The notes under the pieces were generated by a model. The model was not told the DNA's origin. It saw only the letters and a program-made list of their open reading frames with translations, and did not search any database. From positions 1-64,000 of the forward strand of contig MPMX01000009.1 in the NCBI GenBank assembly GCA_002238725.1: 64,000 bases of DNA. Direction: 5' to 3'. Within the stretch, counting starts at the first letter, position 1, and each line of letters starts with the position of its first letter. The position numbers and the translations under genes are program-made. The stretch comes from Rhodospirillaceae bacterium bin65 (lineage in GTDB: Bacteria; Pseudomonadota; Alphaproteobacteria; Bin65). Shown here one piece after another: positions 17,926-54,780 of this stretch.

Positions 17926-18098
17926 AAGGGAGGGGTTGTCTGCCGCCGTACCGATGTCCGATCCCGGCGCCGCGACAGGGTCCGCATACCCGTCCCCCAA
18001 ACCACCTCCTCCGAGGGGAGGGGGGCACTTGCCATTCCTGCAGCTCTTCGCAGCGGAATCCAGGGAGAGGGATTCGAGTGGCGCCCCTGAGGGGGTGT

Positions 18099-18134
18099 GT
18101 CAGGAAATGTCATGAAATGTCATGAAATGTCATG
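18099..18134. repeat. 10-bp GTCATG tandem array, site 3 (4 units)
   Basis: Units at 18099 (GTCAGGAAAT), 18109 and 18119 (GTCATGAAAT twice) and 18129 (GTCATGAGTC), again in strict 10-bp phase, 329 bp after site 2. It abuts a region of inverted repeats. Confidence 0.85.
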
Positions 18135-18195
18135 AGTCGTCGCGACGGCCTCGCCCTTCGCTCTGCTGCGCCGCAGCCCCGTTTCCTGCACACCG

Positions 18196-18255
18196 GCCGC
18201 GTCGTCCCTTGCCGCGTCGTCCCTGGCCGTGCCGTTCCAAGTCGTGCCGTTCCAA
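18196..18255. repeat. Four degenerate 15-bp tandem repeats upstream of tRNA-Ser
   Basis: Units start at 18196, 18211, 18226 and 18241. Units 1 and 2 differ only at the last base (GCCGCGTCGTCCCTT/G). Units 3 and 4 share CGTGCCGTTCCAA and differ at the second base. The 15-bp period matches that of the array between ppiD and tpiA, although the sequence is different. Confidence 0.75.
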
Positions 18256-18549
18256 GCCGCATCGCCGGGCGGGCGTGCGCAAACCGCCGCCCACCCGGGA
18301 CGCGGTTTGTTCATATAATGTTCTTATTGCCGGTGTCAAGCTCTTTTCCGGGCATCGGCACGGTTCGGAGGTTCGACCCCCGGGCAGGGCCGGACACCCT
18401 CGCCGGCAGATCGAATTGCCGCCCCGGCTTGCGCTCGCAGCGCCGCCGCCCTACCTTCCGCGCTTTCCGTCCGTGCCCCCGTCCGCGCCCCGGCCCGCCG
18501 CATACCGGCGAAACGCCGGCCGCAGGCGAAGGAAGGCACGGGCGGCCGC

Positions 18550-19033
<484 letters not shown>

Positions 19034-19062
19034 TTGCCCCAAATTTAGGTATCCAGTATAAT
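19034..19062 (+). promoter_or_regulatory. Sigma-70-like promoter for the AT-rich two-gene cassette
   Basis: TTGCCC at 19034-19039 and a perfect TATAAT at 19057-19062 are separated by 17 bp, an optimal spacing. The first start codon lies 33 bp beyond the -10 box. Perfect -10 boxes are rare in such GC-rich DNA. Confidence 0.65.
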
Positions 19063-19094
19063 CCCACATGCTCCACGCCTAAATCTCCTCCTTG

Positions 19095-19469
19095 ATGAAC
19101 AACGAGAATAAAATGCACTTGAATCGGCTCACGTTGATTGCAGCAATCTTGCTCTTGGTTAACATACCCGCTTCTGCACAAGACACACAAAAAAATAGCA
19201 AAGTGTACGAATGCGGAGGTGAACAGATGCAACTGACGGAGCTGAAAGATGGCCGTCTGGCGCTAAAGGGAAAAAACCTCACCGGGTATGTATCTATCCA
19301 TAAACCTACCGGAATGTACCGGGGATCGGTATCTGGCTGGGGATCACAACACAACACACCAAAAGAAGCGCTGGCAGCTGCATGTCGCTGGCTCTTGGAA
19401 CGGGCCAAAGCAAAATCCGAAGAAGAACTCCGGAAACGGTTACACGAGTTTTACGAACAGTGGAAATGA
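19095..19469 (+). CDS. Small secreted protein of unknown function in an AT-richer cassette
   Basis: About 124 residues from ATG 19095. A signal peptide is evident: a positive start (NKMHLNRL), hydrophobic core TLIAAILLLVNIPASA and a probable Ala-x-Ala site before QDTQKN. The mature part (about 95 residues) has lone cysteines in YECGGEQM and AAACRWLLE, a Gly/Tyr-rich middle (GKNLTGYVSIHKPTGMYRGS) and a charged helical end (KSEEELRKRLHEFYEQW). No family is recognised. An ATG at 19113 is an alternative start. Its codons are much more A/T-ending than those of neighbours, suggesting recent acquisition. Its stop overlaps the next gene as ATGA. Confidence 0.7.
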   Translation: MNNENKMHLNRLTLIAAILLLVNIPASAQDTQKNSKVYECGGEQMQLTELKDGRLALKGKNLTGYVSIHKPTGMYRGSVSGWGSQHNTPKEALAAACRWLLERAKAKSEEELRKRLHEFYEQWK

Positions 19470-19840
19470 GAGATTCAAGAGCAGAAAACACTAACACCTT
19501 ACGAGGAAATGCTTTGAGCGGATTTCTTATTCGGCTAAAAGAGCCAGCAACGGCATTGGCTATCGTTTTAGGGATCGTTGTCACATTTGGATCCGGGTTC
19601 TTTGCCGGTGCCCATTGGTATGTTTCTTCTGAACTAGACCCCCTGCGCAAAGAAGTAGCAGGGTTGGCGAAAAACATCGAAGACAACAGAAGCAAACTAT
19701 CGTCTAATGGAGAACGATTAGCGGGAATTGCCGCCACGCTCGCGGGTATAGTTGAACGAGTTGACCGGCTGCACACTCAGGTGACCAAAAATACCGAAAC
19801 AATAACTGACGTAAGAGTCAGAGGCACACCGGGACCGTAA
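19466..19840 (+). CDS. Single-pass membrane protein with coiled coil, coupled to the secreted protein
   Basis: A 124-residue protein from the ATG at 19466 inside the preceding stop (ATGA). After a polar N-terminus there is one transmembrane helix (ALAIVLGIVVTFGSGFFAGA). A heptad-like region of about 60 residues follows (LDPLRKEVAGLAKNIEDN, LAGIAATLAGIVERVDRLH) and probably forms a coiled coil. No family is recognised. The layout resembles small spanin- or accessory-type membrane proteins of mobile elements, but no catalytic or phage gene is nearby. The AT-richer composition is shared with the upstream gene. Confidence 0.7.
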   Translation: MRDSRAENTNTLRGNALSGFLIRLKEPATALAIVLGIVVTFGSGFFAGAHWYVSSELDPLRKEVAGLAKNIEDNRSKLSSNGERLAGIAATLAGIVERVDRLHTQVTKNTETITDVRVRGTPGP

Positions 19841-19988
19841 TTGTCTCCATCAGTATGCCATTCGATTGTTCGAAAAATTATATCCAGTTCCGACTTGCGA
19901 CGCCATTTCCACAAGTCGCCATTGCATCCCCGCTGGCGCCGCCCGGCCCTCATCCGCTACACTCCCCCGGCAATTTCGGGAGGAACGC

Positions 19989-20417
19989 ATGACATTATCG
20001 CTCGAACGGGCGCGCACGATTATCCGGGTGGCGCTGGAGAGGCGGGTCGAGATGGGGCTGCGGCCATTGGCGGTCGCGGTGCTGGACGAGCGCGGCGCGC
20101 TGGTCGCCTACGAGCAGGAGGACGGCTCGACCCTGCTGCGCGAGCGGGTCGCCCGCGGCAAGGCGATGGGCGCGCTCGGCATGGGCATGAGCTCGCGCCG
20201 GCTCGGCGAGATGGGCAACGAGCGGCCGATGTTCATGCAGGCGCTGATCGACGCCTCCGGCGGCCAGCTGGTGCCGGTGCCGGGCGGCGTCGTCGTGAAG
20301 ACGCCGGAGGGCCATCTCTACGGCGCGGTCGGCGTGTCCGGCGATACTTCGGACAAGGACGAGGCGGTCGCCGTCGCCGGCATCGAGGCGGCGGGGCTGG
20401 TCGCGAAGGTGGATTAG
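19989..20417 (+). CDS. GlcG/HbpS family protein (DUF336)
   Basis: A 142-residue GlcG/HbpS-fold protein. This family includes haem-binding and redox-sensing proteins and accessory proteins of small-molecule catabolism. It reads MTLSLERARTIIRVAL at the start. The core segments ALVAYEQEDGS, PMFMQALIDASGGQLVPVPGG and GAVGVSGDTSDKDEAVAVAG are typical. GGAGGAACGC precedes the ATG at 19989. It stands just before the Rieske dioxygenase genes, separated by a repeat; members often sit in catabolic clusters, and their biochemical role is unsettled. Confidence 0.85.
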   Translation: MTLSLERARTIIRVALERRVEMGLRPLAVAVLDERGALVAYEQEDGSTLLRERVARGKAMGALGMGMSSRRLGEMGNERPMFMQALIDASGGQLVPVPGGVVVKTPEGHLYGAVGVSGDTSDKDEAVAVAGIEAAGLVAKVD

Positions 20418-43042: not shown

Positions 43043-43693
43043 TCAGTGCATCGGGACGAACGCCATGGCGAGGGAGGTTTCGATCTCCGTGACCGCTTTC
43101 GAGACTTCCCGCCCGATCAGGTCCATCTGGCGGATCTGGTCGATCCGCGCCGCCGCCGACTTCAACTCCCGGCCCGACAACAGGCCTTCGAAGATGCGGC
43201 AGATGTCGGCGAGCGAAATGATGATGATGTCGCGCGCGTCCGGGATATCGTCGCTCAGGATCACGCCCATGATCCGGAGCTTCACCTCGCGGACCGTCTT
43301 GTAGTCGTCGATCGGGTAGCGCCGCGTCCGCAGCACCCACATGAAGCGGTCCTCTTCGCGGTGCAGGATGCCGCGTCCGACCAAGCGGGCCAGCGAGCGC
43401 TCGCGGATCGCTTCGGCGTCGGCAACCGTATGCTTGATCCAGTAGCGGGTGTCCTGGGTTTCCTCGGACTCGACGATCCGGGCCAGCACCGGATCGAGCA
43501 GATCGTCGCCGATCGGGCTCGGATCGATCACGAAGAGGCGCTCGGGATCGGTGTCGATCCGCCCCTCCATCGTAAGGTCCATCAGAACCGCTCCGGCAAG
43601 GGCATATTCGAGCGACAGCGTCGGTACGTCGATGAACCTTCCGCCTTTGTCGTCCAGCAACAGCAGCATGATCTCTTCCGAGAATCTCAACAT
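43043..43693 (-). CDS. GPP34 (GOLPH3/Vps74-like) family protein
   Basis: A 216-residue protein of the GPP34 family. Eukaryotic members bind phosphatidylinositol 4-phosphate on Golgi membranes; the role of bacterial homologues is unclear. Recognisable segments are EIMLLLLDDKGGRFIDVP, SLEYALAGAVLMDL and RIDTDPERLFVIDPSPIGDDLLD. ATG 43693 follows AGGAG at proper spacing; longer starts lack family sequence. It is divergent from the BMC operon across 332 bp and is not obviously part of it. Confidence 0.85.
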   Translation of the reverse strand: MLRFSEEIMLLLLDDKGGRFIDVPTLSLEYALAGAVLMDLTMEGRIDTDPERLFVIDPSPIGDDLLDPVLARIVESEETQDTRYWIKHTVADAEAIRERSLARLVGRGILHREEDRFMWVLRTRRYPIDDYKTVREVKLRIMGVILSDDIPDARDIIIISLADICRIFEGLLSGRELKSAAARIDQIRQMDLIGREVSKAVTEIETSLAMAFVPMH

Positions 43694-44025
43694 ACAGGCG
43701 ATCTCCTGAGTCGGGGCTTGGGCAATTGCTGTGGCTTTGCAATGGCGCAACCATACCGCGCCGTTTCCGGCTTGCACAGTTCCATTGAGTGCCGTCCTAT
43801 CGGATATACCGGCGCCGATCCGCAAGAAAAATATCTCGCCGCCGCCGTGGCCCGATCGCCACCGGCAGGCTGACGATTTCAGGCCGCAATCCTGCCGGAG
43901 AGCGAGGCCGCCGCCAGATTTTCCGCTCTGCGCCATTGGCCCGGTCGCCACTTGAGAGGGCGATCGGGACGAACGACACTCTCCGCCGTATCGACGGTCG
44001 CAGCCGCCTTCGGGAGAGAGCAGCC
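43694..44025. other. Divergent promoter interval between the GPP34 gene and the microcompartment operon
   Basis: A 332-bp non-coding gap that must hold promoters for both directions. A segment CTTGGGCAATTGCTGTGGCT and a pair GGCGCAACC/GGCTTGCAC are visible, but no clear sigma-70 boxes or palindromic operator stand out. GGGAGAGAG just before 44026 is the ribosome site of the first BMC-operon gene. Confidence 0.4.
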
Positions 44026-45102
44026 ATGAGCTATGCCCATATTTCGGTCGAGCCGTTGACGCCGACGATCGGCGCCATGGTCTCGAATGTGGATCTCAAC
44101 GCCGTCCGCTCCGATGCGGTCTACGAGGAGATCAGGGCGGCGCTCTGGAAGTATCATGTCCTCTTCTTCCGCAACCAGCCGATCGAGCCGGAGCCCTATA
44201 TCAGGCTGGGCAGCCAGTTCGGCGATCTGGAAGAGCACGAGTTCTTCCCGCATATCGAAAGCTATCCGCAGATCCAGACCATCGCGCACGAGGGCTACGA
44301 TCAGCCGGAAACCGACCGCTGGCACACCGACGTCACCTTTCGCGCCCGGCCGAGCAGCGTCAACCTGCTGCGCGCCGTAAAGCTGCCGCCGTCGGGCGGC
44401 GACACGGTCTGGTCGTCGACCGCCGCCGCCTTCGACGCCCTGCCGGACCAGCTCAAGACGATGCTGCTCGGCCTGAAGGCCGATCACGATCTGCCGCACC
44501 ACCAGCGCCGCATCGACTTCTATCGCCGGGTCGAGGAAGGCCGGATCGGCGGCCAGTCGATGATGAATTCGATGGCCAATGAGCACGAGTTCCGGCTGAT
44601 CGAGCAGAACCCGATCGTCACCCATCCCGCGGTCATCAACCATCCGGTCACCGGGCGGCTGACCCTGTTCGTCAACTCGATCTGGACCAAGAAATTCTTC
44701 GGCATCCATCTCGATCTGAGCGACGCGCTGCTGGGAATGCTGTTCGAGTGGGTCAAGAAGCCGGAATTCCTGGTGCGCTTCCGCTGGGAGACCGATTCGC
44801 TGGTGATCTGGGACAATTTCGCGACCCAGCATTATGCGGTGTTCGACTATGCGCCCAACTACCGGGGCATGCACCGGATGACCGCCGGGTCGGCCGAGCC
44901 GCGGCTCGACATGGCGACGGTTCCGGCCCATCTGCGCCCGCCTTCGGCTTCGGCCGGCAACGGCGCCGGGCCGCGTTCCATCGTCGATACCGACCGGCTG
45001 GCCGCTGCGCCTGCAGCGGAACGGGCCGCGGTCCATGCCGTGTTCAATGCGCTCGACGGCGTCGATCTCGATGCCATCGGCGCCCGGGCTGCCGGCATCT
45101 GA
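44026..45102 (+). CDS. TauD/TfdA-type Fe(II)/2-oxoglutarate dioxygenase with C-terminal targeting-like tail
   Basis: A 358-residue dioxygenase of the TauD/TfdA family, which oxidises substrates such as taurine to unstable hydroxylated products that break down to aldehydes. The iron ligands are His100, Asp102 (WHTDVTF) and His269 (FATQHYAVFDY); Arg280 binds 2-oxoglutarate. After the usual end of the fold (RGMHRMT, about residue 286) come some 70 extra residues. These are a flexible Ala/Gly/Pro-rich linker and a terminal helix-like stretch AERAAVHAVFNALDGVDLDA. That layout is like an encapsulation peptide. It is the first gene of the BMC operon, 32 bp before the aldehyde dehydrogenase, and so a candidate source of the aldehyde. 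The substrate is unknown. Confidence 0.88.
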   Translation: MSYAHISVEPLTPTIGAMVSNVDLNAVRSDAVYEEIRAALWKYHVLFFRNQPIEPEPYIRLGSQFGDLEEHEFFPHIESYPQIQTIAHEGYDQPETDRWHTDVTFRARPSSVNLLRAVKLPPSGGDTVWSSTAAAFDALPDQLKTMLLGLKADHDLPHHQRRIDFYRRVEEGRIGGQSMMNSMANEHEFRLIEQNPIVTHPAVINHPVTGRLTLFVNSIWTKKFFGIHLDLSDALLGMLFEWVKKPEFLVRFRWETDSLVIWDNFATQHYAVFDYAPNYRGMHRMTAGSAEPRLDMATVPAHLRPPSASAGNGAGPRSIVDTDRLAAAPAAERAAVHAVFNALDGVDLDAIGARAAGI

Positions 45103-45134
45103 CGCGCGGCTGCGGAGCGGACGGGCGAGGCGGC

Positions 45135-46658
45135 ATGACCCCCGACAGGATGGACCGCGACAGGATGGACCGGGATCTTCAGGCCCTGCAAAGCAGCCGC
45201 GATCTGCTGCGCCGCGCCCGGGCGGCGGCCGAGGCGTTCCGCCAGGTCTCGCCAGCCGCCGCCATGAAAATCGCCGGCAAGGTCGCCGAGGCGGCAGCCG
45301 GCCGCGCGCGCCGCTATGCGGAATGGGCTGTCGAGGAAACCGGCTTCGGCAGGGTCGAAGACAAGATCGACAAGAACCTGTCGGGCAGCATCCGGGTCTA
45401 CGAGGAGTATCGCGACCGGCCGGTCGGCGGCATCCGGCAGGACCGGGAGCGCAATATCGTCGAAATCGGCCGCCCGGCCGGCGTGATCGTCGGCCTGTCC
45501 AATTCGACCTCGCCGGTCGGCACCGTCTATTTCAAGGCGATGCTGGCGCTGATGTCGCGTAACGCCATCGTGTTCAGCCCGCACCCGGCGGCGTTGGCCT
45601 GCACCGGCGACGCAGCGCGTTTCCTCGAAGAGTCGGCGCGGCGCGCGGGCGCCCCGAAGGATGCCATCCAGATCCTTGCTGAACCGAGCCTCGAAGCGAC
45701 GAACGCCCTGATGCGTTCCGACGAGACCGACCTGGTGATCGCCACCGGCGGCGGGCCGATGGTGCGCGCCGCGTACAGTTCGGGCAATCCCGCCCTCGGC
45801 GTCGGGCCGGGCAACACGCCGGTCTACGTCGACCGGACGGCCGACCTGGCCTTCGCAGCGGAGAAGATCGTCGAGGGCAAGCAATATGACTACGGCACGC
45901 CCTGTTCGGCGCCGTCGGTCGTCTTGGCCGACAAGCCGGTCGGGCGCGAGTTGCGCGGGCTGTTCGAGCGTGAAGGCGCCTATTTCTGTTCCGACGAGGA
46001 ACTGGCCACGCTCGAGGCGGCGGCTTTCCCCGGCGGTCGCCTCAACCCGGCGATCATCGGCCAGCCCGCCGGCCGGGTGGCGCAGATCGCCGGCCTGTCG
46101 CTGCCGCCGGAGACCCGGGCGATCGTCGGGCTCCTCAAGGATGCCGCCCAGGATGCCGCCCAGGATGCCGCCCAGGATGCCGGGAGCGTGCCGCCGATGG
46201 CGCGGGAGAAACTCTCCGTCCTGCTCGGCGCCGCGGTCGTGGACGGGGTGGAAGGCGCCATCGGCATCGCCCGCTGCATGCTCCGGTCGGCGGGCAGCGG
46301 CCACACCGCCGCCATCTTCACCGGCGACCCGGAGCAGGCCGTCCTGTTCGGCGCGGCGCTCGACTATTACCGGATCGTGGTCAACGGCGACCCGACCAAT
46401 GGCGCGGTCGGCCGGGGCACGGGCTTGCCGGTCACCTTCACCATCGGCACCGGCTTCGCCGGCAAGAGTTCCATCGACCATAATCTCGGCCCCGAAGACC
46501 TGATCGACTGGAAGCGCGTCGCGTTTCCGTCCGGCGAGGCCCCGGCGGCGAAACCTGTGGCGCCGCAGGCCGAACCGGCGCGCGGCACCGAAGCGGCGGT
46601 GCAGTCCCTGAAGGCGGAAGTCCGGCGGATCGTCGCCGAAGAACTGGCGCGGAACTGA
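45135..46658 (+). CDS. BMC-associated CoA-acylating-type aldehyde dehydrogenase
   Basis: A 507-residue aldehyde dehydrogenase of the PduP/EutE/SauS class, which converts an aldehyde plus CoA and NAD to acyl-CoA. Features: GVIVGLSNSTSPVGTVYFK, GGGPMVRAAYSSGNPALGVG, GPGNTPVYVD and the catalytic Cys257 in YDYGTPCSAPS. The general-base Glu of non-acylating enzymes is not seen, which supports CoA acylation. The last ~20 residues (AAVQSLKAEVRRIVAEELARN, split from the body by an Ala/Pro linker) are an amphipathic helix like known encapsulation peptides. A DAAQ-DAAQ-DAAQ insertion sits at residues 336-347. BMC-T follows after 5 bp. Start is ATG 45135 after GGGCGAGG. Confidence 0.9.
   Translation: MTPDRMDRDRMDRDLQALQSSRDLLRRARAAAEAFRQVSPAAAMKIAGKVAEAAAGRARRYAEWAVEETGFGRVEDKIDKNLSGSIRVYEEYRDRPVGGIRQDRERNIVEIGRPAGVIVGLSNSTSPVGTVYFKAMLALMSRNAIVFSPHPAALACTGDAARFLEESARRAGAPKDAIQILAEPSLEATNALMRSDETDLVIATGGGPMVRAAYSSGNPALGVGPGNTPVYVDRTADLAFAAEKIVEGKQYDYGTPCSAPSVVLADKPVGRELRGLFEREGAYFCSDEELATLEAAAFPGGRLNPAIIGQPAGRVAQIAGLSLPPETRAIVGLLKDAAQDAAQDAAQDAGSVPPMAREKLSVLLGAAVVDGVEGAIGIARCMLRSAGSGHTAAIFTGDPEQAVLFGAALDYYRIVVNGDPTNGAVGRGTGLPVTFTIGTGFAGKSSIDHNLGPEDLIDWKRVAFPSGEAPAAKPVAPQAEPARGTEAAVQSLKAEVRRIVAEELARN
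46140..46175. repeat. Three perfect 12-bp in-frame repeats in the aldehyde dehydrogenase gene
   Basis: GATGCCGCCCAG occurs three times in a row (46140, 46152, 46164) and a fourth partial unit GATGCC follows. They encode DAAQ repeats in a surface loop region between the GLLK segment and PPMAREKLS. Copy-number change would not shift the frame. Confidence 0.95.
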
Positions 46659-46663
46659 AGCCG

Positions 46664-47284
46664 ATGCCGACCCTGCGCTCCTATATCTTCCTCGACCAGT
46701 TGCAGCCGCAGACCATGTGCTACATCGGCTCGACGATGCGCGGCTTCCTGCCCCGCCAGCGCGATGCGGCGATGATCGTCGAGGTCGCGCCCGGGATGGA
46801 CATCGAGTGGCTGACCGACATCGCGCTCAAGCACGATGCCATCCGCCCCGGCAATCTGGTGGTCGAGCGCCAGTTCGGCTATCTGGAGTTCCATGCCGGC
46901 GACCCGGCTTCGGTCCGCTCGGCCGGCGCTGCGATCCTGGCAGCGGCCGGCGCCTCGGCCGCCGATGCGATGCGTCCGGAAATTCTGGCCTCCCGCATCG
47001 TCGACCGGATCGATCCCTACCATTCCTTCCTGGTCAACCGGAACAAGCAGGGCAGCATGCTCCTGCCGGGCGACACCCTGTTCATTCTCGAACTGACGCC
47101 GTCGGCCAACGCGCTGCTGGCCGCCAACGAAGCGGAAAAGGCCGCCAACGTAAAACTGGTCGACTGCCGCTTCATGGGCGCTGCGGGGCGGCTCTACATG
47201 GCGGGCACGGCGTCTGACGTACGCACAGCAGCCGAGGCGGCCAGAGAGGCCTTGGGTGCGGCCCCGGGGGCAGGGGGAGCATAG
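46664..47284 (+). CDS. Tandem-domain BMC shell protein (BMC-T), copy 1
   Basis: A 206-residue protein made of two BMC domains (about 3-95 and 100-200), forming pseudohexameric trimer tiles of the microcompartment facet. It begins MPTLRSYIFLDQLQPQTMCY and has VVERQFGYLEFH at the end of domain 1. Domain 2 has GDTLFILELTPSANALLAAN and DCRFMGAAGRLYMAGT. This is the tandem shell type found in actinobacterial and alphaproteobacterial loci. It lies 5 bp after the aldehyde dehydrogenase and 2 bp before the next gene. Confidence 0.93.
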   Translation: MPTLRSYIFLDQLQPQTMCYIGSTMRGFLPRQRDAAMIVEVAPGMDIEWLTDIALKHDAIRPGNLVVERQFGYLEFHAGDPASVRSAGAAILAAAGASAADAMRPEILASRIVDRIDPYHSFLVNRNKQGSMLLPGDTLFILELTPSANALLAANEAEKAANVKLVDCRFMGAAGRLYMAGTASDVRTAAEAAREALGAAPGAGGA

Positions 47285-47286
47285 CG

Positions 47287-48126
47287 ATGGCGGAGCAGAC
47301 GGAAGCGATCCGCAAGCTGGTGCGGGAGGCAATCGCCGAGTTGCAAAGCGCGGAGGCAGCGCCGCCCTCCGCCGATGCCGGGCAGGGCGTTCCGGTGCGT
47401 ATTCCCGTTGTCATTCGCGACAGCGCGGACGCGGATCGACTGGCGAAACTTGTGGCCGCCATTGCCGCGTCGCCGGAACTCGGGCCGCGCCTGAAGGGCG
47501 GCGCCATCGCCTTCGATGCGCGATTGGCGGCCGATGCCGAAGGGGGCGCCGACGGGGCGGCGGAAAGCGACGCGCGGGCGGCATTCGACCGCTTCTTCGA
47601 AGCCTTCAACACCGGCGATTTCGACCGGATCTGGCCGACCGTCACCGACAATTTCGAATGGCGCCTGCCGGCCGGGCCGGACGGGCCCTACACGTCGGCC
47701 AAGGGCGAGGCGGCCTTCCGCGAGGCCTATACCAAGCGCTGGGCCTTCCTGAAGCATTTCAACGCGGTCAACGAGGTCGTGTTCGTCAGCGGCGACCGGG
47801 TCTACCAGCACTATCGGGTCAGCGGCACCGGCCCCGACGGGGCGGCCGTCGATTTCACCGGGCTGGACTTCTACATCGTGCGCGACGGCAAGATCGCGCT
47901 CAAGGACGCCTTCAACAAATCCGTGACGCCCGGCGGCGGCAGGAGTCCCGGAAAGGCCGGCGGGCCGTCGCTCGATATCGCCAACGGAGTCGTCACCGAG
48001 CGCAAGGTCGCCGAGGCCGCCCGGCTCGGCACCCGGCTGGTCGTCGGCCGCCACGCGGTTGTCACGCCGCTCGCCCGAGACCGCGCCAGGGCCCTCGGTC
48101 TGACCATCGAGAGGAGCGAGCCATGA
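47287..48126 (+). CDS. Chimeric BMC-associated protein with a central NTF2/SnoaL-like domain
   Basis: A 279-residue protein with unusual parts. Residues 5-19 ([15 protein letters not shown]) form an encapsulation-peptide-like helix. Residues about 36-80 are a small conserved-looking region ([20 protein letters not shown]). Residues 95-212 are an NTF2/SnoaL-fold domain ([20 protein letters not shown], then [20 protein letters not shown]). The tail (228-275) contains [16 protein letters not shown] and [19 protein letters not shown], resembling the TPxAR motif near the ends of EutT-like and other BMC-linked proteins. NTF2-fold proteins may be isomerases, hydrolases or binding scaffolds; no activity is assigned. 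ATGA overlap with the shell pentamer gene shows tight coupling. Confidence 0.78.
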
Positions 48127-48374
48127 AATCCGGCAAAGTCGTCGGCCGCGTCTGGGCCACCAAGCGCGTCGAGAACCTTCCCGCCGGCGCGTTGCTGGAA
48201 GTCGAACTGGACGGCCGCGCCAGGGAGAGGGTCATCGCCTTCGACCCGCTCGGCTCGGGCGACGGCGAGCGCGTGCTCGTCACCTTCGGGGAGGCGGCAA
48301 CCAACTGGTTCCCGGAAGGCAAGGCCATTGTGGATGCCCTGATCGTCGGCGCGCTCGACGACGCCGGAGACTGA
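48123..48374 (+). CDS. BMC vertex pentamer protein, EutN/CcmL family (BMC-P)
   Basis: An 83-residue pentameric vertex protein that caps the corners of a closed shell. The sequence starts [20 protein letters not shown] with LLEVELDG, the EutN/CcmL fold core. It overlaps the preceding stop by ATGA. The presence of a vertex protein together with BMC-H and BMC-T supports a complete closed shell. Confidence 0.92.
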
Positions 48375-48418: not shown

Positions 48419-48694
48419 ATGTCCCAGGCAGTAGGAATGATCGAAACGGTTGGCTACGTCGCCGCCTATGCGGCGGCCGACGCCATGGTCAAGGCTGCGA
48501 ACGTCACCATTGCCGGCCGCGAGCAGGTCGGCGGCGGGCTGGTCGCGGTCAGCGTCACCGGCGATGTCGGCGCGGTCAAGGCGGCGACCGAGGCCGGCGC
48601 CGAAGCCGCGTCGCAGGTCGGCGACGTCAAGTCCGTGCACGTGATCCCGCGTCCGCACGCGGATGTGCAAAAGGCGTTCTCCGGCGGCAAATGA
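48419..48694 (+). CDS. BMC hexamer shell protein (BMC-H)
   Basis: A 91-residue canonical single-domain shell protein, the main facet tile. It opens [20 protein letters not shown], followed by [20 protein letters not shown] and ends [16 protein letters not shown], all standard for BMC-H. The ribosome site GGAGG at 48409-48413 is the strongest in the operon, in line with high shell demand. The 44-bp gap before it could hold an extra control point. Confidence 0.96.
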
Positions 48695-48730: not shown

Positions 48731-49360
48731 ATGCCTGAGTTGCGCGTCTACCTGACGCTGAACGGACTGCAGCGGCAGTTCGCGGCCTATCTCAGTTCGC
48801 CCGTGCCGGCGCGCGGCTATGTCCCGCTGGAAGGCATGCACTCGCTGATCGTCGAGGTCGCGCCCGGCCTGGTGATCGAGCGGGTGATCGATCTCGCCCT
48901 CAAATCCGTGCCGTCGCTCGAGCCCGGCATCCTCGCGGTCGAGCGCCAGTTCGGCGTGCTCGAACTGCACAGCGAGGACCGGCGTGCGCTCGACCGGGGC
49001 GGGCGGGCGATCCTCAAATGGCTCAAGGCCAAACCGGAGGATCAGCTCAAGCCGCAGGTGCTGTTTTCCGAGATCATCGAAGATGTCACGGACCAGCACG
49101 CCGTCATCATCAACCGGTCGAAGCAGGCCAACATGATCCTGCCCGGCCAGAGCCTGTTGCTGATCGAGTGCGTGCCGGCCCTGTTCGGCGCCTTCATCGC
49201 CAACGAGGCCGAGCGAGTGCAGCCCGGCAACAGCCTGGTCGAATGCCGGATGATCGGCGCCAGCGGGCGGGTCTATATGGCCGGCGAAGCGGATGCGCTG
49301 CGCGAGACGCTGGCGCATGTCGCGGAGGCCGTCGCCGCAATTCCCGGCCGGGCGGCCTGA
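48731..49360 (+). CDS. Tandem-domain BMC shell protein (BMC-T), copy 2
   Basis: A 209-residue paralogue of the shell protein at 46664. The parts match domain by domain: VVERQFGYLEFH becomes AVERQFGVLELH, and CRFMGAAGRLYMAG becomes CRMIGASGRVYMAG. It starts MPELRVYLTLNGLQRQFAAY. Two different BMC-T proteins probably give tiles with different central pores. It closes the shell gene run; a 79-bp gap leads to the regulator gene. Confidence 0.93.
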   Translation: MPELRVYLTLNGLQRQFAAYLSSPVPARGYVPLEGMHSLIVEVAPGLVIERVIDLALKSVPSLEPGILAVERQFGVLELHSEDRRALDRGGRAILKWLKAKPEDQLKPQVLFSEIIEDVTDQHAVIINRSKQANMILPGQSLLLIECVPALFGAFIANEAERVQPGNSLVECRMIGASGRVYMAGEADALRETLAHVAEAVAAIPGRAA

Positions 49361-49439: not shown

Positions 49440-50576
49440 ATGGTATTGTATCGGCGCCACGCTTCATCGGAGGGGTGCGCCGGGCGGATGGGGGTTTCGG
49501 ACCCGAAACCGACGACAGTGGCGATCGTGGCCGCCGACGGGGTGCTCTCCTCGGCGATCGCAGGGCCGTTCGATCTCCTGTCCAGCGCCGGCTACCTTTG
49601 GCAGGTGCTGAATGCAGATCCGGTCTGGACCCGGCGGTTCGACGTTTCGGTGCTGGCGCGCGAAAAGGGGCCGTTGCGCTGCTATCAGGGCCTGACCGCG
49701 TTTGCCGACAAGGCGCTCGGCGAGATGCCGAACCCGGATATCGCTTTCGTGCCGACCGTGTTCCTGCCCACGCTGCTGGAAGAGCCGCTCGGGATACCGG
49801 AGGCCTGGCGCCCGATCGTATCCTGGCTGGGGACGGCCTATCGGAGCGGCAGCCTGATCTGCTCGAATTCGTCCGGGGCGCTCCTGCTGGCCGAAGCGGG
49901 CCTGCTCGACGGCTGCGCGGCGACGATCCACTGGACGCTTGCCGAGCGGGCCCAGCAGAAATATCCCGCCGTCCGCTTTCAGCCCGATCGGGTGCTGATC
50001 CCCGAGGGCCCCGGCGAGCGCATCGTGACGGCCGGCGGCGGCACCTGCTGGCAGGATCTGGCGCTCTACCTGATTGCCCGCTTCGCCGGATCGGTGACCG
50101 CGGCGCAGACCGCCAAATCCTTCACCATTTTCCGCAAGGTGCGGGGCCAACAGCCCTACGCCGAATGGTTTCCGCCGAGGAATCACGGCGATGCGGCGGT
50201 CGCGCGTGCCCAGGAGGCACTGCACAGCCGGTTTCCGGATGCCGACGTGCTGTCCGGCGCCGTGGCGGCGTCGGGCCTGACGCCGCGCACCTTCAAGCGG
50301 CGCTTCAAGGCGGCGACCGGCCAGTCCGCCACCGACTACATCCAGCATCTCCGGGTCAAGGAAGCGCGCTTTCGCCTGGAGACCACGAACAACAGCATCG
50401 AAGAGATCGGCGCGCGGATCGGCTATCGGGACGTCGCCTTTTTCCGGACGCTGTTCCGGCGCCTGGTCGGCCTGACGCCGGGCCAGTATCGCGAGCAGTT
50501 CGGCCTTCTGGAATATCCGGGGGCCGACCCGCTCGACGCAATTGCCGAATCCTTTGACGCCGAAGCTGCATCATAG
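49440..50576 (+). CDS. GlxA/FtrA-type AraC-family transcriptional regulator
   Basis: A 378-residue regulator with an N-terminal DJ-1/PfpI (GATase1-like) sensing domain (about 25-200, with SLICSNSSGALLLAEAGLL at the nucleophile-elbow position, Ser or Cys). A C-terminal AraC DNA-binding domain follows (ASGLTPRTFKRRFKAATGQS and IEEIGARIGYRDVAFFRTLF). GlxA-type regulators often respond to amines, carnitine or betaine-like compounds. It lies between the shell genes and the transporter genes on the same strand and is a likely activator of both. ATG 49440 has AAGGGGG upstream; ATG 49488 is possible. Confidence 0.9.
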   Translation: MVLYRRHASSEGCAGRMGVSDPKPTTVAIVAADGVLSSAIAGPFDLLSSAGYLWQVLNADPVWTRRFDVSVLAREKGPLRCYQGLTAFADKALGEMPNPDIAFVPTVFLPTLLEEPLGIPEAWRPIVSWLGTAYRSGSLICSNSSGALLLAEAGLLDGCAATIHWTLAERAQQKYPAVRFQPDRVLIPEGPGERIVTAGGGTCWQDLALYLIARFAGSVTAAQTAKSFTIFRKVRGQQPYAEWFPPRNHGDAAVARAQEALHSRFPDADVLSGAVAASGLTPRTFKRRFKAATGQSATDYIQHLRVKEARFRLETTNNSIEEIGARIGYRDVAFFRTLFRRLVGLTPGQYREQFGLLEYPGADPLDAIAESFDAEAAS

Positions 50577-50630: not shown

Positions 50631-51629
50631 ATGAAATTCCGTTCGACGATTCTGGCGCTGAGCGCCGCGGCGCTGCTGACCGCGCCGGCCGCTCAGGCAC
50701 TGGAGCTCAAGCTCTCCATTTCGCCGCCGCCGCAGACGCCCTGGGGCAAATTCGTCATCAGGATAGCCGAAAAGGTCAAGAAGGCTTCGGGCGGCACGCT
50801 GACGATCAAGAACTATTTCAACGACCAGCTGGCCGGCAACGAGCAAAACACGATCCGCCAGATCGTGCGCGGCCGCGTCGACCTGGGCGCGCATTCCAAC
50901 ACCGGTATTTCTCTGGTTGCTCCTGAATTTGGCCTGCTCGCCGCGCCCTTTCTCTGGAAGGACCTGAACGAAGCCGATTGCGTGGCCGACAAGCATCTGC
51001 TGCCGGTCTATGACGGGTTGCTGCGCAAGGGCGGCGTGGTGCCGCTGACCTGGATGGAGGTCGGCAACCAGATCGTGTTCGCCAAGAAGACGATCAAGTC
51101 GCCAGCCGACCTCGCGGGCGTCAAGCTGCGGACTGCGCCGACGCCGACCGATACGATCTACATGAAGGTCGCCGGCGCCAACGCCATTCCGCTCGGCACG
51201 GCCGAGAGCATGCCGGCCCTCAAGACCGGCGTCGTCGAGGCCGCAACATGGCCCACGGTCTACGGCATTGCGGTCGGCTATCACAAGGTCGCGCCTCACG
51301 TCACCGTAACCAAACATTCGCATCAGCTCGGCGGAGTCGTCATCAGCAAGAAGGTCTGGGACGGGCTCAACAAGCAACAACGGGGATGGCTGCTGACCGC
51401 GCACGAATCGGTCGGTTTCCTGCGCAAGGCTGTGCGGGGCGCAGAAGCAGCGTTGCTGGGCAAGATCGCCAAGGGCGGCGCGACGGTCTACCGGCCGAAC
51501 GCGGCGGAAATGAAAGCCTGGCGGTCCAAGGCCCCGGCCGCTCAGGCGCAGATCATCAAGGATTTCGGCGGTCAGGCGGCGGAAGTCTGGAAGCGTCTGC
51601 AGGCCGCCCGCAAGGCCTGCGCCGCTTGA
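50631..51629 (+). CDS. dctP: TRAP transporter substrate-binding protein DctP
   Basis: A 332-residue periplasmic binding protein of the TRAP family. Signal peptide MKFRSTILALSAAALLTAPA with cleavage near AAQA. The mature part shows the TRAP-T core LWKDLNEADCVADKH and LAGVKLRTAPTPTDTIYMKV, whose Arg (in LRTAPT) usually binds a substrate carboxylate. That Arg suggests an organic acid or sulfonate ligand. AGGAAACAG precedes the ATG. Operon with DctQ and DctM. Confidence 0.92.
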   Translation: MKFRSTILALSAAALLTAPAAQALELKLSISPPPQTPWGKFVIRIAEKVKKASGGTLTIKNYFNDQLAGNEQNTIRQIVRGRVDLGAHSNTGISLVAPEFGLLAAPFLWKDLNEADCVADKHLLPVYDGLLRKGGVVPLTWMEVGNQIVFAKKTIKSPADLAGVKLRTAPTPTDTIYMKVAGANAIPLGTAESMPALKTGVVEAATWPTVYGIAVGYHKVAPHVTVTKHSHQLGGVVISKKVWDGLNKQQRGWLLTAHESVGFLRKAVRGAEAALLGKIAKGGATVYRPNAAEMKAWRSKAPAAQAQIIKDFGGQAAEVWKRLQAARKACAA

Positions 51630-51645
51630 CCTGCAATTCACTCGT

Positions 51646-52149
51646 ATGCGCAGCGGCATAGCCAGCGCGCTGCGCGCACTCTTTTGGTTCGAGGCCGGGC
51701 TCGCCACCGCCGCCTATGCGGGGGTGGCGGGCCTTCTTCTTGCCGATGTCCTGTCGCGGGAAATCTTCGGCGAGGCGATCTGGGGCGCGCAGAAAATAGC
51801 CGTTTTCGGCGCGATTATCGCGGGCTTTCTCGGCCTGGTGCTCTCGACCGCGTCGAACAGCCATCTGCGGCCGCAATTCGCTGACGGCTGGTTTCCCCGT
51901 GCCTGGAGCCCCGGCGTCGACCGCGCCGGCGACGTTTTCTCCGGCATGCTCTATATTGGTTTCGCCATCGTTGCGGTGGGCTATGTCGAGGAAAGCATCG
52001 TCGCAAGAGAACGCGCCGCGGTTCTGTATACGCCCCTGTGGCCGATCCAGATCGTTCTGCCCTATGCCTTCTTTTCGTCGGCGCTGCGGCACCTCTCCTT
52101 CGCTGCGTTCCCGGGACTGAAACCCGCGGCACGCCCGGAAGCCGGCTGA
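51646..52149 (+). CDS. dctQ: TRAP transporter small membrane subunit DctQ
   Basis: A 167-residue protein with four predicted membrane segments (about 15-33, 45-66, 97-115 and 128-150), the DctQ pattern. It includes the typical FGAIIAGFLGLVLSTASNSHL turn. It bridges DctP and DctM; only a 4-bp gap precedes dctM. Confidence 0.88.
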   Translation: MRSGIASALRALFWFEAGLATAAYAGVAGLLLADVLSREIFGEAIWGAQKIAVFGAIIAGFLGLVLSTASNSHLRPQFADGWFPRAWSPGVDRAGDVFSGMLYIGFAIVAVGYVEESIVARERAAVLYTPLWPIQIVLPYAFFSSALRHLSFAAFPGLKPAARPEAG

Positions 52150-52153
52150 CGCC

Positions 52154-53413
52154 GTGGAAGCGCTCGGCCTGATCGGCGTCGTTCTGCTGCTGCTGGCGTT
52201 CCGCCAGAACATCATCCTCATCCTGCTGACGGCGACTGCCTACGTTCATCTGGTCTGGGGCGACGGCCGGATCTCCTATCTGGTCGACGACATGTGGGGC
52301 AGCCTCAACAACGAGGTGCTGCTCGCAATCCCCATGTTCATCGCCGCCGGCAACGTGATGACGCGCGGATCGATCGCCGAACGGCTGATCGAGGTCATGC
52401 GCGTCCTGACCCAGTGGCTGCCCGGCGGCCTGGCGGTCGCGACGATCCTGTCCTGCGCCATGTTTGCCGCCATCTCCGGCTCGTCGCCGGTGACGCTGCT
52501 GGCGGTCGGCACCATCCTCTATCCCGCCCTGCTGCGCGAAGGCTATTCGCGGAGCTTCTCGCTCGGCGCGCTCACCTCGGGCGGCACGCTCGGCATCATC
52601 ATCCCGCCGTCGATCCCGCTGATTCTCTACGGGATCGTCACGGAAAAATCGATTTCCGACCTGTTCACGGCCGGCATCATGCCGGGGCTGCTGCTGACGG
52701 CCGTGCTCAGCATCTACGCGCTCTGGACCAACCGGCACTTGCCCTCGAAAGCGTGGGAGTTCCGCGTGATCGGCGTGGCGCTGCGCCGGGGCGTCTGGGC
52801 GCTCCTGCTGCCGGTCGTCCTGCTCGGCGGCATCTACACGGGTTATTTCTCGGCGACCGAAGCTGCGGCCGTGGCGCTGGGCTATGCGCTGTTCGTCGAA
52901 ATATTCGTCCATCGCGAGATGCGGCTGCGGGATTTCTTCAACACCTCGGTCGAGACCGCGAAACTGCTCGGCACGCTGTTCCCCATCGTGGCGGTCGCCC
53001 TCAGCATCAAGTCGCTGCTCACCGTCGAGCAGGTGCCCCACGCGCTTGCGGAATGGATCGGCACGATCGTGACCGACCCGATTACTTTCCTGCTGGCGAT
53101 GAACGTGCTGCTGCTGCTGGTCGGCTGCTTCATCGACGTGATCTCGGCGATCCTGATCCTCGGGCCGCTGATGCTCGGCATCGCACAGACCTACGGCATC
53201 AACCCGATCCACCTCGGCATTATCATGGTGATCAATCTGGAGGTCGGCTTCCTGACGCCGCCGGTCGGCCTCAACCTGATTGTGGCGACAACGGCGTTCC
53301 GGGAATCCTTCTTCATGGTTTGCCGGGCCGTCCTGCCCTTCATTGCGCTGATCCTCGGCGTGCTGATGATCGTGACTTTCGTGCCCGAATTGTCGCTGTT
53401 CCTGGTTCGTTAG
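52154..53413 (+). CDS. dctM: TRAP transporter large membrane subunit DctM
   Basis: The 419-residue, 12-helix permease of the sodium-coupled TRAP system. Family motifs include IPMFIAAGNVMTRGSIAERL, ATILSCAMFAAISGSSPVT and GGTLGIIIPPSIPLILYGIV. It starts with GTG 52154. The transporter is co-directional with the shell operon and regulator, so its substrate may be the precursor metabolised in the microcompartment. Confidence 0.95.
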   Translation: MEALGLIGVVLLLLAFRQNIILILLTATAYVHLVWGDGRISYLVDDMWGSLNNEVLLAIPMFIAAGNVMTRGSIAERLIEVMRVLTQWLPGGLAVATILSCAMFAAISGSSPVTLLAVGTILYPALLREGYSRSFSLGALTSGGTLGIIIPPSIPLILYGIVTEKSISDLFTAGIMPGLLLTAVLSIYALWTNRHLPSKAWEFRVIGVALRRGVWALLLPVVLLGGIYTGYFSATEAAAVALGYALFVEIFVHREMRLRDFFNTSVETAKLLGTLFPIVAVALSIKSLLTVEQVPHALAEWIGTIVTDPITFLLAMNVLLLLVGCFIDVISAILILGPLMLGIAQTYGINPIHLGIIMVINLEVGFLTPPVGLNLIVATTAFRESFFMVCRAVLPFIALILGVLMIVTFVPELSLFLVR

Positions 53414-53523: not shown

Positions 53524-54780
53524 GTGACGGAAATCTACAACGCCATCGGGCTGCAGACCGATACCGTCGACTGCAAGTTCCGGGTCGGGGATGCGCCGGA
53601 CTACGAGCGCAACCTGCGCCACCTCGATCACATGATCGACATGGCGGCGCTTCATTCGCTGGAATACCGGCCGCGCCTGCTCGCCCTGTGCGAAGGCGCG
53701 ATCCAGGGCTTCCCGGACGAATACCACGATTGGGAATCGGCGGCCTACGCGCGCAGCGGCGCCATCGACATTCCCGGCCCGGTGACCGACCGCCTGGCCG
53801 AAAAGGCGGTCCAGTGGAATCTCTACCTGATCGGCCAGGCCAAGGCGCGGATGCCGGAGTTCCCCGACCGCTTCTTCAACACCGGCTTCATCATCGATCC
53901 GGCGGGCGAGATCGTTCATCTCCACCGCAAGAATGTCGTGTTCACCATCGAGCACACGACGACGCCGCACGACGTCTGGGACCAGTGGGTCGCGATGTTC
54001 GGCGACGGGCTCGACGCTTTCTTCCCGGTCGCCCAAACGCCGATCGGCAACATCGGCTGCCTGATCTGCATGGAGGGCAACTTCCCGGAGCTGGCGCGCG
54101 GCCTGACGATGAACGGCGCCGAGATCGTCTACCGGCCGAGCTCGATCGAGAACAAGATCTCGACCGGCGTCTGGCAGATCCAGAACCAGGCGCGGGCGCT
54201 CGACAACAACTGCTATGTGATCGCGCCCAACACCGGCTACCACATCGTCGACGCGGCCGGCACACGCGGCTTCGTCACCGGCGGCCATCCGATGATCGTC
54301 GACTATCGCGGCCAGATCGCACACGAAATCCGGACCCAGGGAGACGCCTTCGTCGCCGCCCCGGTCAACATCGAGGGCCTGCGCCAGCACCGGGCGAACG
54401 CGCGCCAGAACAACTGGGCGCCGCACATGAAGACCGAGCTTTACCGGCTGGTCTACGACATGGCGGTGTGGCCGAAGAATCTGGCGGCGACACGGCCGCC
54501 GCAGCGCCGCGAAGCGACGGACGAAATCTATTTCCAGACCATCCGGCGCCTGCAGGAATCGGGTGTCCAGACGCCGCCGGCCACCGCGGGCCACCGCAGA
54601 GAGCCGGGCGATGCGCCGGCCGGCCCGTCGCTCAGGGATCACATACTCGGGCAGGTTGCGGCCATCGGGAATGGCGGGCGCACAGGACCGCAGGCCCCGA
54701 AGCTAAGGGTGGTCGGCGACGACGGTACGGTCGAAGAGCCGGCTGAAACGGCAGTCGTTCCGGACCGGGCTGCGGAATAG
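53524..54780 (+). CDS. Nitrilase-superfamily carbon-nitrogen hydrolase
   Basis: A 418-residue amidase or nitrilase-type hydrolase. The Glu-Lys-Cys catalytic triad is visible as Glu57 (LLALCEGAI), Lys136 (LHRKNVVF) and Cys182 (IGCLICMEGNFPELAR). The conserved Glu after the Cys (CMEG) is also there. The C-terminal ~80 residues beyond the fold are Pro/Gly-rich and may be flexible. It starts with GTG 53524, 110 bp after dctM. Release of ammonia or an amine from an imported amide would feed the dioxygenase-aldehyde route; that link is inference. Confidence 0.88.
   Translation: MTEIYNAIGLQTDTVDCKFRVGDAPDYERNLRHLDHMIDMAALHSLEYRPRLLALCEGAIQGFPDEYHDWESAAYARSGAIDIPGPVTDRLAEKAVQWNLYLIGQAKARMPEFPDRFFNTGFIIDPAGEIVHLHRKNVVFTIEHTTTPHDVWDQWVAMFGDGLDAFFPVAQTPIGNIGCLICMEGNFPELARGLTMNGAEIVYRPSSIENKISTGVWQIQNQARALDNNCYVIAPNTGYHIVDAAGTRGFVTGGHPMIVDYRGQIAHEIRTQGDAFVAAPVNIEGLRQHRANARQNNWAPHMKTELYRLVYDMAVWPKNLAATRPPQRREATDEIYFQTIRRLQESGVQTPPATAGHRREPGDAPAGPSLRDHILGQVAAIGNGGRTGPQAPKLRVVGDDGTVEEPAETAVVPDRAAE

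Follow-up and report, generated by a model that had tools for sequence, protein, structure and literature searches.

A dioxygenase gene beside a microcompartment shell locus

The window analyzed here is a whole stretch of 64,000 nucleotides of contig MPMX01000009.1 from Rhodospirillaceae bacterium bin65 (assembly GCA_002238725.1). From position 44026 onwards, its listing of open reading frames (ORFs) and Pfam domains gives, on the forward strand and in this order, genes for a TauD-family dioxygenase (TauD), an aldehyde dehydrogenase (ALDH), a bacterial microcompartment (BMC) shell protein of the BMC-T type, a SnoaL-containing protein (the locus protein), BMC-P, BMC-H and second BMC-T shell proteins, an AraC-type regulator, a tripartite ATP-independent periplasmic (TRAP) transporter and an amidase (Table 1). 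The named close relatives of this genome are Rhodospirillaceae metagenome-assembled genomes (MAGs), one of them binned from the sponge Spongia. Our results point to a relative of the Rhodococcus and Mycobacterium microcompartment (RMM) with TauD as its putative signature enzyme.

RMM1 and RMM2 belong to the aminoacetone/1-amino-2-propanol type (Axen 2014, PMC4207490). The RMM core of Rhodococcus jostii RHA1 runs ALDH, BMC-T, small hypothetical protein, BMC-P, BMC-H and BMC-T, an order shared by loci of Rhodobacteraceae and other alphaproteobacteria, and in proteobacterial RMM loci the aminotransferase adjoins the ALDH. TauD loci have TauD directly upstream of the ALDH, and this arrangement was found in five lineages, many of the genomes used being MAGs: the sponge-symbiont genus of the window, Chachezhania sediminis (L059, listed as strain CAU 1508), a Burkholderiaceae MAG (L060), L114 and L115/L116. 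With RHA1 queries, the RMM functional module (aminotransferase, amino-alcohol kinase, permease and GntR regulator) had no phmmer match in L114-L116, and it was likewise unmatched in L059, in L060 and in the ORF and Pfam listing of the window. In the trees of both ALDH and the first BMC-T, one branch, recovered in 100% of bootstraps, splits TauD-linked from aminotransferase-linked loci. Because the two sets separate in all bootstrap trees, the locus is, on sequence grounds, a coherent sister type of RMM and not RMM itself. The BUF and ARO locus types were considered and rejected because an ALDH is present and is RMM-like. We also observed that a genus mate (G004, 96% complete) is without BMC-T, locus protein and TauD orthologue, and that on pRHL2 of RHA1 (L065:10560-17490) the block BMC-T, hypothetical protein, BMC-P and BMC-H is duplicated, with identical protein accessions.

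The dioxygenase and its C-terminal module

The TauD core matches TauD structure 1gqw in the PDB (1.2e-58) and conserves the iron ligands H100/D102/H269, the 2-oxoglutarate (2OG) contacts T127/R280 and the sulfonate-binding His and Arg (H71, R284). In the Escherichia coli enzyme the amine of taurine is held by a pocket comprising D94/N95/S158 (PMC9304159). The residues near the taurine amine are altered in the window enzyme, with D94, N95, S158 and Y73 of E. coli replaced by E95, T96, H159 and F74, and its NCBIfam score of 258 falls under the equivalog cut-off of 313. The TauD loci of Burkholderiales encode SsuA-family binding proteins, which score below the curated cut-off. Since the sulfonate-binding His and Arg are kept, the amine residues are changed and SsuA-family proteins accompany the Burkholderiales loci, the substrate is likely anionic, for instance a sulfonate or sulfate ester, and perhaps a sulfonate; taurine itself is unlikely, given the altered pocket. 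When TauD acts on taurine, hydroxylation releases an aldehyde, and an aldehyde would also be the product of the window enzyme. In the plasmid collection, the best matches listed for TauD relatives comprised only generic TauD proteins of ~37-42% identity.

Beyond the end of the Pfam domain (residue 286), TauD carries 72 extra residues, including AERAAVHAVFNALDGVDLDA, in agreement with the ~70 that an earlier note on this DNA had claimed. They comprise a variable linker and a conserved module with the sequences SIVDTDRLAAAPAAERAAVHAVFNALDGVDLDAIGARAAGI in the window, SIVDKSRLAQSSPQERAAVGAIFEALDRVDLDALAARAKR in L059, QLLDTTRMQAASPREQQAVEAIFSALESVDLNAVANVAQRR in L114 and GMLDDSRMQRLSDTERRAVKAVFEAISSLDLADIARRSANV in L115. 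Pairwise alignments of the module among these four BMC-linked lineages, which are distant from each other, give z-scores of 11-18. Across the eight genomes searched it occurs in at most one copy per genome, each time on this TauD.

The earlier note had suggested checking whether only BMC-linked TauD homologues possess the tail. The full module is present in the BMC-linked TauD proteins of four lineages, the fifth (L060) keeping its end only, whereas two BMC-free lineages lack it. The first of these comprises Burkholderiales TauD proteins of 53-57% identity (L061-L063), which stop ~35 residues past the core, without the module, and whose genes have flanks without BMC genes. In the TauD tree they are nested within the BMC-linked clade (nodes 100/99 and 99/97). 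A genome-wide search, in which positive controls were matched, found no BMC-domain protein in their genomes, nor did a BMC-T profile that matched the L059 and L060 genomes; the BMC-domain model missed the truncated BMC-T of L060, so that a single divergent BMC-T could go unnoticed by it, whereas a BMC-H ought to be caught. As in L060 and L114, SsuA-, TauB- and TauC-like genes precede TauD in these operons, and a class-V aminotransferase occupies the place of the L060/L114 ALDH and shell genes. The second lineage is a TauD relative (L129/G871) without tail or detectable shell, placed within the same clade with moderate support (90/89). The module was absent from all 14 of the more distant TauD relatives checked. 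L060 belongs to a Burkholderiaceae-type family of which 351 genomes were covered; this TauD clade is present in 5 of them, and 4 of these 5 are the only ones with the RMM-like BMC-T.

Because the tail is kept by relatives with the compartment and missing in those that lost it, TauD probably works inside the shell. The earlier note had reached that location from a supposed likeness of the tail to encapsulation peptides; the location is favored by the co-occurrence of tail and shell, but the likeness is borne out neither by consensus nor by hydrophobic moment. As a separate observation that may hint at substrate, the tail-less TauD of L062 has after it (L062:4278-6556) a class-V aminotransferase resembling PhnW/BhcA and a protein of the phosphonate-binding type.

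Other cargo candidates and neighboring genes

The ALDH has a GTPCSAP motif with the catalytic Cys and is similar to acylating ALDHs; the NCBIfam models AdhE, EutH_ACDH and SauS all score under cut-off. It resembles CoA-acylating enzymes, and this is its predicted activity. Its C-terminus reads PSGEAPAAKPVAPQAEPARGTEAAVQSLKAEVRRIVAEELARN. An encapsulation-peptide matrix was built from 15 RMM ALDH C-termini and compared with 695 control segments, none of which scored as high as the 14.3 of this tail. Together with the Ala/Pro linker, this upholds the earlier proposal for the ALDH terminus, which is predicted to be a genuine RMM-type encapsulation peptide. In RHA1, the ALDH and the aminotransferase share their C-terminal 30-odd residues, including VREELRRLIVEELRGLIGQNHG, a natural case of one signal on two cargo enzymes whose origin local gene duplication may explain. 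The three termini singled out earlier (TauD, ALDH and SnoaL-type protein) are all present where they had been placed, and they are not of one kind.

The locus protein begins with a helix that is RMM-wide and whose matrix score of 3.1 is reached by two of the 695 controls. The homologous proteins of RHA1 and the other RMM loci are ~145-170 aa long and have no SnoaL domain; in them this helix is followed by a small domain, a linker and a VITE...TPLAR module at the C-terminus. The locus proteins of Chachezhania and L115/L116 likewise lack SnoaL; the C-terminal module of the window protein (VVTERKV...) also occurs in RMM proteins without any SnoaL domain. The earlier description of a SnoaL-type protein with a targeting N-terminus thus holds for the helix, which is RMM-like and conserved, but not for the idea of a SnoaL enzyme that gained a tag, which was rejected: the protein belongs to the RMM core, and SnoaL is the insert. 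In the window genus the insert follows the small domain and precedes the C-terminal module; in L114 it comes earlier, behind the N-terminal helix and ahead of the small domain. The two inserts score 84.9 and 65.1 bits against the free-standing SnoaL protein L047 and 29.3 bits against each other. Each insert resembles free-standing SnoaL proteins more than it resembles the other insert, so that SnoaL was probably captured twice; the different positions also make a single origin unlikely. No solved structural relative of the small locus protein was found. The L114 protein (L114:7877-8830, Burkholderiales), of RMM type and with its SnoaL domain at the different position, also contains a potentially metal-binding, Cys-rich stretch, CCSSCKAGKACECKGDTCALHDH.

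Downstream of the shell genes, the TRAP transporter is the probable route of substrate uptake. The amidase gene was found in the genus loci L055 and L058 and not in the L059 locus, and the enzyme may prepare the substrate in the window genus. Elsewhere in the window, a GPP34/GOLPH3-family protein is encoded divergently just upstream of tauD (43043-43951, reverse strand; Pfam 1.6e-44), and positions 18001-20000 have a G+C content of 0.565, against 0.61-0.72 in the rest; a tRNA-Ser gene at 18550-18638, within this low-G+C stretch, is a possible insertion site.

Table 1. Features of the locus, with window coordinates, strand and evidence
Feature	Coordinates	Strand	Evidence
TauD/TfdA-family Fe(II)/2OG dioxygenase, 358 aa, putative aldehyde-generating signature enzyme	44026..45102	+	Pfam TauD 2.9e-59, residues 8-286
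Variable low-confidence linker, TauD core to tail module	44884..44970	+	No conservation between lineages; AlphaFold2 pLDDT ~35, residues 311-320
Conserved BMC-linked C-terminal module of TauD, 43 residues (316-358), L.D..R......ER.AV.A.F.AL..VDL..I	44971..45099	+	z 11-18 among four lineages
CoA-acylating-type ALDH, RMM-like core enzyme	45135..46658	+	Best PDB match 5j78, an acetylating acetaldehyde dehydrogenase, 4.8e-99
Predicted C-terminal encapsulation peptide AVQSLKAEVRRIVAEELARN after Ala/Pro linker	46596..46655	+	RMM ALDH tail matrix score 14.3
BMC-T shell protein 1, CcmP-like, double-stacking type	46664..47284	+	Best PDB match 5l39, RMM shell protein MSM0275, 1.6e-73
RMM conserved locus protein with inserted SnoaL domain	47287..48126	+	No SnoaL part in the homologues from R. 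jostii RHA1 and further RMM loci
N-terminal encapsulation-peptide-like helix of locus protein	47290..47349	+	Matrix score 3.1; AlphaFold2 helix 2-21, pLDDT ~42 (low confidence)
Inserted SnoaL domain, NTF2-like fold	47587..47898	+	Pfam SnoaL_2 7.2e-19; Foldseek SnoaL-like matches
Conserved C-terminal module V(I/V)TE..V......AV(I/V)TPLAR	47968..48123	+	Alignments; common to RMM proteins
BMC-P (EutN/CcmL) vertex protein	48123..48374	+	Pfam EutN_CcmL 9.6e-18; start codon overlaps stop of SnoaL-containing gene
BMC-H shell protein	48419..48694	+	Pfam BMC 5.3e-25
BMC-T shell protein 2, CcmP-like	48731..49360	+	NCBIfam CcmP model 9.5e-50, under cut-off
AraC-family regulator with DJ-1/PfpI-like domain	49440..50576	+	Pfam HTH_18 and DJ-1_PfpI; syntenic in Chachezhania L059
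TRAP transporter: DctP 50631-51629, DctQ 51646-52149, DctM 52154-53413	50631..53413	+	Pfam DctP and DctQ; 3/3 genes syntenic in L059
Nitrilase-superfamily amidase	53524..54780	+	Pfam CN_hydrolase 3.1e-32

Interpretation and comparison with known systems

The explanation we favor, and hold to be fairly probable, is an RMM-sister metabolosome in which luminal TauD, recruited by its tail, makes an aldehyde for the ALDH. In the window the TRAP transporter would import the substrate; in Burkholderiales an ABC transporter of the SsuA/TauBC-like kind would do so. Within the shell, TauD would hydroxylate the carbon next to a leaving group, releasing an aldehyde that the ALDH would turn into acyl-CoA. 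RMM-type encapsulation peptides would keep the ALDH and the locus protein in the lumen, and the conserved C-terminal module of TauD would do the same for that enzyme. From gene content, synteny, tail conservation, tail absence in BMC-free clade members and conservation of catalytic residues, we infer luminal location, recruitment by the tail, aldehyde product and substrate class.

Several results weigh against this explanation. The TauD tail scores -7.7 on the RMM encapsulation-peptide matrix (p = 0.38, 695 control segments) and is therefore not of that consensus. Its hydrophobic moment, which the earlier note had suggested checking, is 0.47, no higher than that of shuffled sequences (p = 0.29), and was discarded as support because a shuffled sequence does as well. 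AlphaFold2 places tail helices at residues 322-327, 330-344 and 348-356 with low confidence (pLDDT 38-56), and L060, although BMC-linked, retains only about the last 13 residues of the module, LDLDQVVAYARRR. Co-loss of tail and shell is backed by two BMC-free lineages only, one of them placed at 90/89; the locus showed neither a phosphotransacylase (PTAC) nor an alcohol dehydrogenase that would recycle cofactors, a lack it has in common with RMM; and both the product and the substrate class of the window enzyme are deduced. The tail is a longer, predicted multi-helix module, unlike a typical encapsulation peptide by consensus or moment.

These properties would suit a tail that binds a partner (ALDH, the locus protein or another TauD subunit) and not the shell, bringing TauD into or to the compartment indirectly or serving oligomerization; where the tail is lost, moreover, the ALDH is gone along with the shell. 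We nevertheless think this unlikely. The TauD-TauD variant is less likely, since the BMC-free relatives have the same transporter operon and manage without a tail, and none of the observations separates partner binding from direct shell binding. Much the same lack of canonical features, with the degenerate tail of L060, could be cited for TauD as a cytosolic operon mate whose tail is an inherited extension without a targeting role, but a tail that stays conserved behind a variable linker despite deep divergence (z 11-18), and is lost in BMC-free relatives nested within the clade, makes this very improbable. Least credible, to the point of being nearly dismissible, is an ordinary RMM amino-alcohol compartment with TauD as a chance neighbor: the core gene order is that of RMM, but no RMM aminotransferase or kinase was matched beside the core of TauD loci, TauD stands immediately upstream of the ALDH in five lineages, and the ALDH and first BMC-T of these loci form a separate group.

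To our knowledge, the aldehyde of most characterized metabolosomes comes from radical or lyase enzymes, an oxygenase having been proposed only for ARO. A wider claim, to which we give slightly less than even credence, is that the metabolosome is of an undescribed type, in which a 2OG dioxygenase would make a toxic aldehyde within an RMM-like shell and be recruited by a new targeting module, a conserved C-terminal helical tail that differs from the encapsulation peptides known so far and disappears together with the shell. Full-text searches of the literature, which did not extend to the type list in the supplement of the 2021 BMC catalogue (PMC8217296), yielded no microcompartment with a TauD-type enzyme. 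That catalogue lists unassigned metabolosome types in supplementary files, and the TauD-locus type may be among them, without a function. If true, a 2OG-dioxygenase compartment would depend on the passage of O2, 2-oxoglutarate and succinate through the shell. It would bring aerobic cleavage of heteroatom-substituted carbon within the reach of BMC chemistry, and it would give a group of alphaproteobacteria associated with sponges one more possible substrate route. The matched operons with and without a shell, having the same transporter and a TauD with or without the tail, constitute a ready-made test of the tail as a targeting signal.

Compared with the taurine dioxygenase of E. coli, the window enzyme shares the fold, the 2-His-1-Asp iron site, the 2OG contacts and the sulfonate-binding His/Arg, and differs in its amine-pocket residues, its 72-residue C-terminal extension and its score under the NCBIfam equivalog cut-off. 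A precedent for a dioxygenase in a BMC is the ARO microcompartment, which likewise has an O2-dependent dioxygenase as predicted signature enzyme, feeding an aldehyde dehydrogenase; in ARO, however, the dioxygenase is a ring-cleaving 2-aminophenol dioxygenase, the ALDH is CoA-independent and without encapsulation peptide, and the distribution is restricted to Actinobacteria (PMC10470539). With RMM, the TauD loci have in common the core order, an ALDH with a C-terminal encapsulation peptide, the lack of a full PTAC/alcohol dehydrogenase core and MSM0275 as closest solved shell relative. They differ from it in having a dioxygenase in place of aminotransferase and kinase, a TRAP or SsuA/TauBC-like transporter, AraC or other regulators, an ALDH and first BMC-T outside the aminotransferase-linked group and, in two TauD-locus lineages, a SnoaL insert in the locus protein.

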